Shown here one piece after another: positions 26,128-61,870 of a stretch of DNA of 64,000 nucleotides. The stretch spans positions 186,001 to 250,000 of the forward strand of contig JAUHWL010000005.1 of the NCBI GenBank assembly GCA_030424545.1. The letters run 5' to 3'. The position numbers and the translations under genes are program-made. How positions within the stretch are numbered: the first letter of the stretch is position 1; each line of letters begins with the position of its first letter. This stretch comes from Bacteroidia bacterium. GTDB lineage: Bacteria > Bacteroidota > Bacteroidia > Flavobacteriales > Schleiferiaceae. The notes beneath the pieces were generated by a model. That model was not told the origin of the DNA. It did no database searches and saw only the letters and a list, made by a program, of their open reading frames with translations.

Positions 26128-26283
26128 AGCACAAAAACAACCCTTAAACAACATTGGTGCTAAAAATGCAAATTATGTTTTTAAGGAAAAAAAATAAAGT
26201 ATTGTAATAACAAACAAAATTGTTGTATTATTGAAGGTGCGAAAAAGCAAAAAATTCATTCCATAATAAATATGTATAGAAAA

Positions 26284-26704
26284 ATGAAACACACACTTTT
26301 AACTTTAGCAACCACAGCACTTTTATTAAGCTGCTGCAAACCAACCGTAACAACTAGCCCAAGCCCCAATTACACCACCACGGTAACGGGCTATGCGGTA
26401 ACAACAGATAGCTTAGACCCTATACCCAATATAGTGCTTAACATAAACCCACTAGCAGGTAGTTACACCACACCTGTTGGCGGCAAAACAGTACGCACAG
26501 ATAGCACAGGCCGCTTTGAGTTTATTTACACAGGCCCAGCCTATGGCCAAATAGGTATTGGCTTTGGCGGTAACAACAGCTACCACAACCTAGGCGGGTA
26601 CGACTACATTACCCCCTACACCAACAAAACCCACAACATAGAGCTGCAACCCTACGGCTGGTTAAAACTGCATGTTAAAAACGTAAACCCGTGGAATGGG
26701 GATG
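26284..26704 (+). repeat. Duplicated segment, copy A (421 bp)
   Basis: Matches 26954-27374 without a gap. By hand I count about 24 substitutions in 421 positions (about 94% identity), most of them silent. Similarity stops abruptly after the codons for NPWNGDD. Confidence 0.9.
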
Positions 26705-26901: not shown

Positions 26902-26953
26902 CCCACGCTGCTGCTTTGCAAGCAACCCCAACTAGTATTAAAAAAACAAAATA

Positions 26954-27374
26954 ATGAAAAACACACTTTTAACTTTAGCAACCGCAGCCCTTCTATTAAG
27001 CTGCTGCAAACCAACCGTAACAACTAGCCCAAGCCCCAATTACACCACAACGGTAACGGGCTATACGGTAACTACAGATAGCCTAGATCCTATACCCAAT
27101 ATTGTGCTTAACATAAACCCGCTAGCAGGTAGTTACACCACACCCGTAGGCGGCAAAACCGTACGCACAGACAGCACAGGCCGCTTTGAGTTTATTTACA
27201 CAGGCCCAGCCTATGGCCAAATAGGTATTAGCTTTGGCGGTAACAACAGTTACCACAACCTAGGCGGGTACGACTATATTACACCCTACACCACCCAAAC
27301 CCACAACATACAGCTGCAGCCCTACGGCTGGTTAAAACTGCATGTTAAAAACGTGAACCCGTGGAATGGGGATG
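26954..27374 (+). repeat. Duplicated segment, copy B (421 bp)
   Basis: Partner of 26284-26704; see that entry. Confidence 0.9.
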
Positions 27375-48079: not shown

Positions 48080-51000
48080 TTAGACTCCCTCCACAATTTT
48101 AATCTCCTCCACTGTTAACCCGTACAGTTCATACACCATTCTATCAATCTCCTTGTCTATCTTCTCAATGTCTGCTTGCAGGGCGTTGGCTTCTGCTTTC
48201 TTCTTATTAAAATATTGCATCCACTCGGCTTCTTCTTCTAGGCTTAGTTTTACCTTTTTCTTTTTAAGCTCTGCCAAAAAGCCTTTAAAATCTAAGGCCG
48301 GCCAGTTCTTAACTGGGTTTGAGTCTGCTAGTGAACTATGCTTTGACACAACAAATGCAGTAACCGCATGTACTATTTCCAATCTCTTTTCAGTATTAAA
48401 AACACGGTTTTTAGATAAACCTGATAACGGTAATTGCTCGACAAGAGAACAATCAATTATAGGAATTGACTTTAATTGGTAACCTTTAATTTTTGGAAAT
48501 AGCAACTTGCTATCTGAATAATTTGAAACCCAAAACTTTTTTATCAGACTGGAGTTCAGAAGACCAAGAATAAAGTACAAGTCTATTTTTACGTCATCTT
48601 TTGGGTAGACACTGTAAAGTGTGTTTGATGCCAGTATTTTTTCCTTTGAAATACCTACAATAGGTATCTGACCAATTTGTCGCACTACGACTCTTTCGAG
48701 ACTGTAAACATCCCAAGATCCCCCACTTTTTATGTCATCATCTACGTAATTAAAGTACTTCGTAGGTTTCGCTATTGTGAAAGCATGAATGTCTCCACCA
48801 TCAATAATTGGCAAATAATCGTCAGATAATTTAGTTCTAGCTATTGAGGATTTACGATCGTATGCTTGAATTCCAAAGTATGTCTTACAGATGTCACCAA
48901 GCTTAACACAATTACTAGTATCAAACTCAAAAACGTCTTTGACATTAAAAACGAAGTCTGGGTCTTCGTACCACTTAGCTGTTTTTGCCCAAGTCAAATG
49001 AACGATGTTAGAATTTATACTTGTCAGTATTTCAACCTGTTCATTACACATTGATTTGGTTCCAACCAAGGTTGCCACATCAACACTTGCATCAGGAAAA
49101 ACTGCTTCGCTGTGTATAACAATTGCATCCAGTCTTAAAGATGACAGTAGAAATTCTCGAAGCGGCTTTATGTATTTGTTGGTCAGGTAAGTATTTGGTG
49201 TAATAAACCCAATTCTACCTGAATTTCTCAAAATCCTTGTTGAAACCTCAAAGAACAGATGAAACAAGTCGATCTTGTAACTAGCCACGGCAAATTCTTT
49301 GTATTTCTCTAGCACTCTTTCTTCAGTATTCGAAGGTTGGCAAAGGACATAAGGTGGATTCCCAATTACCACATCAAAGCCTCCTTTTACATCCCCCTTC
49401 GCCCCCTTCAAAGGGGGAAAGATGGAGGGAAATTCTTCTTGCCAGTTAAAGGCGAGGTCGCCTGCTACGGCCGGGTCGTCTATTAGGCTGTTGCCCACTT
49501 TTATGTTGCTGCTTAGGTTGTTTAGCTTGCGGCCTTTTTTGGCGGTGCGCAGCCAAAGTGAGAGGCGGGCTATTTCTACGCTTTCTTCGTTTATATCTAC
49601 GCCATAAATGTTGCGCTCTAGTATGTGGTTCTCTACATCAGGGAAAACCATGGCGTAGCCCAGCAGTTGGCTTTCTAGCTCATCAACATAATGGTGTTCG
49701 GCCATTAAAAATTCTAGCGCCTGGTTTAAAAACGCGCCAGAGCCGCAGGCGGGGTCGCAAATGGTAAGTTGCAGCAGCCACTCGCGGTAGGCTTTTAGTT
49801 GGGCATCTAGTTTTTTAAGGGTGGCAGTTTTTCGGCCTTTGCGGTCTTTTGCAAATTCTTCTTCGGTTATGCCAAGTTCTGTTTTCTTTTCTTGGCAGAG
49901 TATGCCAACGGTATTGTCTACAATGTATTTGGTAATGTATTTGGGCGTATAAAACACGCCATCTTTTTTGCGTTTGGTTTTGCTTTTGTCAACTTCTTCG
50001 CCTGCCAGCTGTGCGCGTACGTTTTCAATGTCGTTTAAGCTGTGCTCAAAAATGTGCCCCAAAATATTGGTGTCCACTTCGGTTTCAAAATCGTACTCGG
50101 TTAGTTTTAGGCAGTGTTGCTCTAGCACCGCATCAGAAATTTCGAGGGTATCTAAAACGGCATCTTCTTTAAAAAGCCCCCCATTGTAGGCGTGTATTTC
50201 GGCTTTGTTGGGTTGCTTGCGGCCGTTGTTCATATAGCCGAAATACTTTTTGTAGATGCTATACAGCGGGCGGTATTCGTCTAAATCTTTTAGTTTACGC
50301 CAGTGGTGCACAATTTCGCTAATGCTGTTAGGCGGTAGCAGGCCTTTGTCTTCGGCAAAAAAGATAAAGAGAAAACGGTCGAGCAGTTTTTGGCTTTTCT
50401 TGTAGAGTAAAAGCGGGTCGGCCTTGGGGTTGTTTTGGCAGAGGTCGTGCCACAGGTCGTTTTTAAAAGCCGAGTAATCTTTGTACAGCCGCTTGGTTAC
50501 TTTTTCTTCTTCAAGTAAACTTTCTTCTTTTACCCTTTGCGGGATGCCGCCCAGCAGGTTGTCTTTTTGCAAAAAGAGCCAGAGCAAATCAAACGCATCG
50601 CGCGTAAGCGTAAAGAGGTTAAACTCTACGTGTTCTACCGCATTGTGTATGTAAAAGCGCAGCTTTTCAAAATTGCTGGTGATGACGTAAACGCAATCGG
50701 GCTGGTTGTTTTTGTAGTTAAAGGCTTGGTCGGTTACCTTGTTTAGGTCTTTGGTGTCGGTGCCTTTTAGTTCGATAACGGCAAGGGCAGACCTCACCCC
50801 CGGCCCCTCTCCTGCAAACGAGGGGAGCAAAATTGCGCCATCAGTTTTTTTGGCGTCTTTTATGTTTTTAAGTTCAGTTGTTAGGTTAAAATTGGGGTTG
50901 GGGTTTATGGTGTAGCCCAGAATGTTTACAAACAACTCGCGCAAAAACCCTTCTTGAAATTGTTCTTCTTTGCTGTTGCGGATGTTGTGCTGAATGGCTG

Positions 51001-51103
51001 GATCTAAAAAGTAGGCACTATATTTTTCAAAGGCTTGCTGAATGTCAGTCTCGTTTTGTGTGGAAAGAAACTTTTTAAGTACTGAGGATTGGTATATTGG
51101 CAT
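48080..51103 (-). CDS. Type IIG restriction enzyme and methyltransferase (Eco57I-like)
   Basis: 1007 residues combining cleavage, methylation and target recognition. PD-(D/E)xK nuclease at the N-terminus: Asp88 and ELK at 111-113. A helical connector follows (about 190-380). The amino-methyltransferase has motif I DPACGSGAF at 450-458 and motif IV NPPY at 582-585. The target-recognition domain is about 600-930. Two short peptides encoded by intergenic-type palindromic repeats interrupt it: residues 93-105, between the nuclease Asp and Glu, and 558-575, just before motif IV. The recognition part has much lower GC than the rest. Target and activity are unknown. Confidence 0.9.
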   Translation of the reverse strand: MPIYQSSVLKKFLSTQNETDIQQAFEKYSAYFLDPAIQHNIRNSKEEQFQEGFLRELFVNILGYTINPNPNFNLTTELKNIKDAKKTDGAILLPSFAGEGPGVRSALAVIELKGTDTKDLNKVTDQAFNYKNNQPDCVYVITSNFEKLRFYIHNAVEHVEFNLFTLTRDAFDLLWLFLQKDNLLGGIPQRVKEESLLEEEKVTKRLYKDYSAFKNDLWHDLCQNNPKADPLLLYKKSQKLLDRFLFIFFAEDKGLLPPNSISEIVHHWRKLKDLDEYRPLYSIYKKYFGYMNNGRKQPNKAEIHAYNGGLFKEDAVLDTLEISDAVLEQHCLKLTEYDFETEVDTNILGHIFEHSLNDIENVRAQLAGEEVDKSKTKRKKDGVFYTPKYITKYIVDNTVGILCQEKKTELGITEEEFAKDRKGRKTATLKKLDAQLKAYREWLLQLTICDPACGSGAFLNQALEFLMAEHHYVDELESQLLGYAMVFPDVENHILERNIYGVDINEESVEIARLSLWLRTAKKGRKLNNLSSNIKVGNSLIDDPAVAGDLAFNWQEEFPSIFPPLKGAKGDVKGGFDVVIGNPPYVLCQPSNTEERVLEKYKEFAVASYKIDLFHLFFEVSTRILRNSGRIGFITPNTYLTNKYIKPLREFLLSSLRLDAIVIHSEAVFPDASVDVATLVGTKSMCNEQVEILTSINSNIVHLTWAKTAKWYEDPDFVFNVKDVFEFDTSNCVKLGDICKTYFGIQAYDRKSSIARTKLSDDYLPIIDGGDIHAFTIAKPTKYFNYVDDDIKSGGSWDVYSLERVVVRQIGQIPIVGISKEKILASNTLYSVYPKDDVKIDLYFILGLLNSSLIKKFWVSNYSDSKLLFPKIKGYQLKSIPIIDCSLVEQLPLSGLSKNRVFNTEKRLEIVHAVTAFVVSKHSSLADSNPVKNWPALDFKGFLAELKKKKVKLSLEEEAEWMQYFNKKKAEANALQADIEKIDKEIDRMVYELYGLTVEEIKIVEGV
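49380..49429. repeat. Palindromic repeat of intergenic type inside the restriction gene (family 2)
   Basis: CCTCC, TTTTACATCCC and CCCCCTT/AAGGGGG (49402-49408, 49411-49417) ending in GGAGGG. Read on the minus strand it encodes residues FPSIFPPLKGAKGDVKGG just before motif IV. The CCCCCTTTGAAGGGGG core followed by GGATGTAAAAGGAGG is one I associate with intergenic palindromic repeats of Bacteroidetes. Confidence 0.7.
50792..50827. repeat. Palindromic repeat of intergenic type inside the restriction gene (family 1)
   Basis: CCTCACCCCC, GGCCCCTCTCC, loop, AGGGGAG. Read on the minus strand it encodes residues 93-105 (LPSFAGEGPGVRS). The intergenic copy at 61834-61870 starts with the same CCTCACCCC and CCTCTCC blocks. 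Confidence 0.7.
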
Positions 51104-61833: not shown

Positions 61834-61870
61834 CCTCACCCCAACCCTCTCCTTTTAGGAGAGGGAGACT
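61834..61870. repeat. Palindromic repeat, family 1, intergenic copy
   Basis: CCTCACCCCAACCCTCTCCT, loop TTT, AGGAGAGGGAGACTT: 9-bp perfect stem CCCTCTCCT/AGGAGAGGG (61845-61853, 61857-61865). It shares its first 9 nt and its CCTCTCC block with the copy inside the restriction gene. Confidence 0.75.

Follow-up and report, generated by a model that had tools for sequence, protein, structure and literature searches.

Palindromic elements translated in frame within a type IIG restriction-modification gene of a Bacteroidota genome and their possible link to small DUF559 nuclease cassettes

Introduction

Palindromes read in frame within protein genes are known mainly from Rickettsia and from genomes rich in repetitive extragenic palindromes (REPs), and the mover of many such families is unknown. 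Rickettsia palindromic elements (RPEs) are described as repeated palindromic DNA of about 150 bp, forming ten families, that is present in frame in unrelated protein genes and translated (Ogata 2000, 2002, reviewed in PMC10969869). The intragenic GTAG/CGTC repeats described in PMC3733652 are in-frame palindromes of uvrA, uvrB and other genes, often those of DNA repair. In the subclass 2.4 tnpAREP genes, REPs have been inserted in frame between the HUH and Tyr motifs of the REP-associated tyrosine transposase (RAYT) (PMC6006769). Here, we describe two palindromic elements, at positions termed site 1 and site 2, in a type IIG restriction-modification (R-M) gene of a Bacteroidia bacterium of the family Schleiferiaceae, and their relation to small cassettes encoding the nuclease domain DUF559. 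The gene lies in a stretch of 64,000 nucleotides (nt), called the window below (GCA_030424545.1, contig JAUHWL010000005.1, positions 186,001 to 250,000).

The window elements share with RPEs the property of repeated palindromic DNA translated in frame within unrelated genes; they are about 37 nt long, occur across Bacteroidota and are linked to a nuclease open reading frame (ORF). The two groups differ in length and host. Hairpins of a like motif were also found in Cyanobacteria and Azospirillum. The GTAG/CGTC repeats are similar as in-frame palindromes of coding genes, and a UvrA case was encountered here too (locus L262; L numbers denote the loci fetched in this work), but other tags stand at the foot of their hairpins and no DUF559 link is seen in the accessible part of that article. 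The REP/REPtron systems with RAYT subclass 2.4 have short palindromes, some of them in frame inside the transposase gene, a situation comparable to the HUH domain nested in relatives of the window enzyme; the window palindromes, however, go with DUF559. Inteins and homing endonuclease genes are alike in placing a nuclease domain in frame within conserved genes, at fixed positions; the DUF559 cassettes are much smaller, showed no Hint domain and leave their peptide in the protein. VsrA of Caulobacter is a DUF559 protein that acts on DNA in cells and causes an SOS response (PMC12907096). It has the same Pfam domain as the cassettes, and the available portion of the article describes no palindrome-ended or nested cassette. 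Judged by title and abstract, none of the papers found to mention DUF559 dealt with palindromes or mobile elements, and no RAYT-like domain nested in a restriction enzyme was found in a literature search beyond which most subscription journals lay.

Results

Both elements lie in a single ORF (Table 1). Its product was called REase_MTase_IIG by PADLOC (6.9e-283), contained the Pfam domains Eco57I, N6_Mtase, MmeI_hel and TaqI_C, and was matched by Foldseek to MmeI, BpuSI and BrxX. A PD-(D/E)xK nuclease, an N6-adenine methyltransferase and a specificity domain are thus combined in one chain, the arrangement of type IIG enzymes. The NPPY motif, like the catalytic residues of the nuclease, was invariant in the 50 homologues. 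The comparison with the homologue of Chlorobaculum thiosulfatiphilum gave a dN of 0.11 and a saturated dS (NG86 estimate 3.8), and strong purifying selection acts on the gene. We infer that the enzyme still cuts.

Table 1. Positions of the described features in the window and, in the last row, in loci of relatives
Feature	Position	Strand	Remarks
Type IIG R-M enzyme, host gene of both inserts	48080..51103	-	1007 amino acids, intact ORF
Site 2, second palindromic element	49388..49417	-	gene strand CCCCCTTTGAAGGGGGCGAAGGGGG, translated PPLKGAKGDV (residues 563-572), between FP.VF and GGFDVVIGNPPY of the methyltransferase
E111-L112-K113 codons (ExK motif)	50765..50773	-	all three residues invariant in 50 homologues
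Site 1, palindromic element of the CTCACCCC/CTCTCC family	50791..50827	-	translated LPSFAGEGPGVR; residues 93-104, turn between two catalytic strands
Catalytic Asp88 codon, nuclease	50840..50842	-	invariant in 50 homologues
Intergenic copy of the site-1 family, hairpin intact	61834..61870	+	pattern match, fold test
Nested HUH loci of relatives	L022:3477-7366; L032:3495-7313; L097, L101, L102, L108, L159, L182		

The first-pass annotation of the window had reported a 36-nt palindromic repeat in the nuclease domain, translated between D88 and the ExK motif. Its place and its translation proved correct, and the element, with the layout ACCTCACCCC..CCTCTCC..GGAGAGGGGAG, is best drawn as 37 nt. The pattern CTCACCCC-N1-7-CTCTCC matched the window twice (50793 and 61835), whereas 100 dinucleotide shuffles gave 0.00 matches on average. 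The second match is the intergenic palindrome to which the annotation had likened the repeat; it belongs to the same family and folded better than its shuffles (z -3.3). The copy inside the IIG gene folded no better than shuffles (z -0.25), so its membership of the family rests on sequence and not on a present hairpin, which in this copy is eroded. A genome count, which had been proposed as a check, yielded six strict copies in 3.38 Mb and none of the reversed pattern; such counts are pattern searches on one assembly, and the strict pattern misses degenerate copies, e.g., the other of the two ends beside the free DUF559 gene described below. The pattern was present in 104 of 385 Bacteroidota genomes, in which the reversed pattern had few matches.

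The genomic contexts of 117 site-1-family copies were read, and 24 of them lay in frame within long ORFs, among others those of leucyl-tRNA synthetase (LeuRS), UvrA, MnmE, HsdM, a multicopper oxidase and an E2 acyltransferase. The family is therefore RPE-like in that it is repeated and palindromic and occurs both between genes and in frame in unrelated genes with homologues that lack the element. The ORFs of L279 and L280, GC-rich and unsupported by Pfam, are possibly not genes. In the genomes first chosen via IIG relatives, several further in-frame copies resided in other R-M or methylase genes; a preference for R-M genes is not claimed, as only two of the 17 intragenic ORFs of the phylum sample were methylases (HsdM and N6_N4).

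Homologues of the IIG enzyme mostly have an empty site 1. The short form DGAIL-KDG-xALAVIELKG occupied 106 of 118 alignment rows (approximately 90%), including that of C. thiosulfatiphilum, the closest relative. The flanks do not join directly as DGAIL...ALAVIELKG, as had been supposed: a KDG-like turn of three residues stands there, and therefore the insert replaces this turn, with 12 residues instead of three and a net gain of nine codons. AlphaFold placed residues 93-105 between the strands 89-92 and 106-112. In the model of the whole enzyme (mean predicted local distance difference test score, pLDDT, 83.9), both inserts were loops. Both are apparently tolerated, the one at site 1 as a surface loop, in agreement with the in-frame insertion that the annotation had considered.

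Residues of the site-1 family were found in three genes of the alignment only, the window gene and two genes of Algoriphagus. The latter carry the element as LPSPEGEGSGVR and LPSPSGEESGMR, inserted at the identical base with no difference in orientation, and its boundaries are the same in all three carriers. Unrelated palindromes occupy the same nuclease turn in L022 (ACAAGGGGTTTAAACCCCTTG) and L033 (TCGAGGGAGCATGCTCCCTCG). Within the element, the three pairs of carriers differed by 11 non-synonymous and six synonymous codon changes, whereas four non-synonymous and 36 synonymous changes were counted in 24 flanking codons. Since the changes are mostly non-synonymous inside and synonymous in the flanks, the insert persists as sequence of DNA origin that is little constrained at the protein level.

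These data bear on two other explanations of site 1. The view that it is an ordinary GC-rich surface loop resembling a repeat by chance would agree with the poor folding of the window copy, but it is hardly credible given the absence of pattern matches in the shuffles, the nearly identical DNA at the same position of the Algoriphagus genes, the inverted ratio of codon changes and the DNA-level match to a phylum-wide family. A conserved loop encoded by different codons, which the annotation had named as the finding that would speak against a repeat, was not seen; what the three carriers have in common is DNA. The second possibility, a single ancient insertion that has travelled with the gene, vertically or otherwise, and has not been mobile recently in the window genome, would account for the exact boundaries and orientation in the three carriers, and Algoriphagus antarcticus has one strict copy in its genome, in the IIG gene. 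Three gains are needed on the tree, however, because the sisters L032 and L154 are empty, and an exchange of local tracts between the window gene and its Algoriphagus counterparts by gene conversion was dismissed as no common flanking tract was seen, very short tracts being still possible. We regard a single insertion as improbable.

Site 2, like the DUF559 association and the nested HUH domain described below, had gone unremarked in the annotation. It precedes the NPPY motif, at a position spanned by one or two residues in most homologues. Its DNA (plus strand CCCCCTTCGCCCCCTTCAAAGGGGG) represents a family distinct from that of site 1; nine other genomes hold 17 further copies of this family, and the reversed pattern had no match. 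The loop 566-571 was modelled with pLDDT under 50. Another IIG homologue (L083:3468-6773) has a different, coiled-coil-looking insert at this site.

Both families are associated with DUF559, a Vsr-like PD-(D/E)xK nuclease domain. Pfam found it nested in frame beside elements in LeuRS (L302), methylmalonyl-CoA mutase (L321), an N6_N4 methylase (L337) and two Eco57I-type enzymes (L218, L220); in L259, again beside an element, it was joined to N-formylglutamate amidohydrolase. When loci were scanned with a profile built from the nested examples, DUF559 was present at nine of about 119 site-1-family loci and five of 18 site-2-family loci versus one of 206 control loci (Fisher 7e-4 and 1e-5, respectively), at a distance of at most 171 nt from the element in every element-locus case. 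Seven cassettes had an element on each side, with inner distances of 406, 406, 417, 418, 441, 450 and 540 nt. Neighbouring element copies were oriented outward in 22 cases and inward in one. Taken as a family, the elements thus border DUF559 ORFs on either side at a nearly constant distance, and the window copies are solo.

The LeuRS genes offered a comparison at one position: the full element-DUF559-element arrangement was present in one genome, two fused ends in another, and neither in two others. The loci concerned are L302, L310, L313 and L320, and the last two carry a copy at another position. Coproporphyrinogen III oxidase was fused in frame to DUF559 in three genomes (L358, L359, L367); a site-2-family copy marks the oxidase-DUF559 junction in L358 and lies just upstream in the others. 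In the window genome itself, two direct element copies enclose a free DUF559 gene (L002:1461-1960, contig C11), which is a candidate for the autonomous copy of that genome.

A search begun from DUF559 led beyond Bacteroidota. A CCCTCTCC-type hairpin was found at four of eight plasmid DUF559 loci versus none in 95 kb elsewhere on two of those plasmids. On plasmid pPg_02 of Pseudanabaena galeata (L382:2379-7244), ten hairpins of the CCCTCTCC type lie in a brxC-adjacent methylase gene in which DUF559 is also nested, and this cyanobacterial methylase of a BREX locus looks like the nesting of DUF559 and elements in Bacteroidota. Viral contigs contained, within the reach of the search tool, no relatives of the LeuRS-nested DUF559 or of the nested HUH domain, and plasmids gave no match for the latter.

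Eight relatives, the closest one included, hold at site 2 a whole HUH (RAYT-like) domain, in frame before NPPY. Its residues H85, H87 and Y163 were invariant in all eight, and it modelled well, with fold matches to IS608 (Z 11.8), TnpA_REP 4ER8 (Z 11.6) and ISDra2; an HUH motif plus catalytic Tyr within a fold of the IS200/RAYT type make it a Y1 (HUH) transposase domain. Among 395 Bacteroidota genomes, its close relatives (at least 39% identity) were inside IIG genes in five of five cases. Linked to it is the palindrome AAGGGG-N6-CCCCTT, with a self-complementary centre, which among the genomes searched is nearly confined to these loci. All three ACAAGGGG-TTTAAA-CCCCTTG copies of the L022 genome were in frame in the IIG gene, one each in the nuclease turn, within the HUH domain and towards the C-terminus. 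Both AAGGGG-N6-CCCCTT copies of Chlorobaculum were inside the HUH domain, and a single copy was inside the domain in two other genomes and just 3' of the gene in two more.

The nested domain raises the main rival explanation, namely that the window palindromes are REP-like and were moved by an HUH (Y1) transposase, possibly the RAYT-like domain at site 2 itself, and that the window gene lost the domain and kept the palindromes. Both nearest relatives on the tree (L032 and L022) have the domain, its invariant residues and TnpA_REP-like fold fit such an activity, one of the three L022 palindromes sits in the very nuclease turn occupied in the window gene, and in-frame REPs are on record from the subclass 2.4 genes cited above. 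The window palindromes, however, belong to families other than the ACAAGGGG one, which the window genome lacks; no GT[AG]G stands at their foot, which reads CCTCACC / GGTGAGG in the copies inspected, and their link is to DUF559. Moreover, no element was found in the 2.5-3.3 kb read around each of the three Y1_Tnp matches of the window genome. A REP/RAYT origin explains the ACAAGGGG palindromes of the relatives better than the two window palindromes, for which we consider it unlikely.

Discussion

We favour, with moderate confidence, the explanation that the two window inserts are solo ends of a small DUF559-linked mobile cassette that landed in permissive loops. The full cassette would consist of an element, a DUF559 endonuclease ORF and a second element, about 0.5 kb in all, and copies without the ORF, such as inverted pairs and single ends, would behave like miniature inverted-repeat transposable elements. 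Solo palindromes would then derive from DUF559 cassettes. The palindrome can be read through within genes because its frames are stop-free. One element may have landed in the hairpin turn of the type IIG nuclease, extending three residues to 12, and we propose that it persisted there because the turn, a loop at the surface, is permissive. A permissive loop of the methyltransferase would likewise have received the other palindrome, which is also linked to DUF559. DUF559 might move the elements; one conceivable route is nicking with subsequent repair or gene conversion. No splicing (Hint) domain was detected in Pfam scans of the host enzyme and the nested proteins, and the inserts are not inteins in this respect.

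Several points weigh against the cassette explanation. Most element copies had no DUF559 within the few kb read; therefore, another agent could move the elements. Neither mobility nor a target duplication was observed, and the control loci were other fetched loci, neither matched in every respect nor a random sample. The window copies being solo ends, their link to DUF559 runs through family membership only.

A nuclease-plus-palindrome cassette of near-constant spacing, nested in well-known genes, is nevertheless a concrete candidate for a mover of in-frame palindromes, and it suggests a possible job for DUF559, a domain named for its unknown function, as a mobile-element nuclease. Restriction enzymes and BREX-type methylases can tolerate nested nucleases and palindromes at a few loops, which bears on the exchange of domains and specificities. 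A broader proposal is more tentative, and we hold it a little less probable than its negation: that a class of mobile elements of about 0.5 kb, absent from the literature searched and made of DUF559 between palindromic ends, spreads in at least Bacteroidota and Cyanobacteria by entering protein genes in frame (those for DNA methylases, a BREX-locus methylase, LeuRS and methylmalonyl-CoA mutase) and leaves solo ends as translated loops. In parallel, the HUH/RAYT-like domain in IIG enzymes would keep its own palindromes in the gene, so that such defence enzymes may be a haven for nested nuclease parasites.

Some minor observations concern the same gene, genome and window. The identity of the IIG enzyme to that of C. 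thiosulfatiphilum is 84% over residues 1-562 and about 32% beyond site 2, and the G+C content of the gene passes from 45% before site 2 to 37% after it. These differences suggest that an exchange of the specificity half took place close to the insert at site 2. On contig C6 of the genome, an element stands at the beginning of a lipoprotein-like ORF (L001:1441-2325) and could supply its GTG start (GTG AGG TTG) ahead of the signal peptide. Elsewhere in the window, a 300-nt direct repeat occurs at 26280-26579 and 26950-27249, with 94% identity and 670 bases apart.
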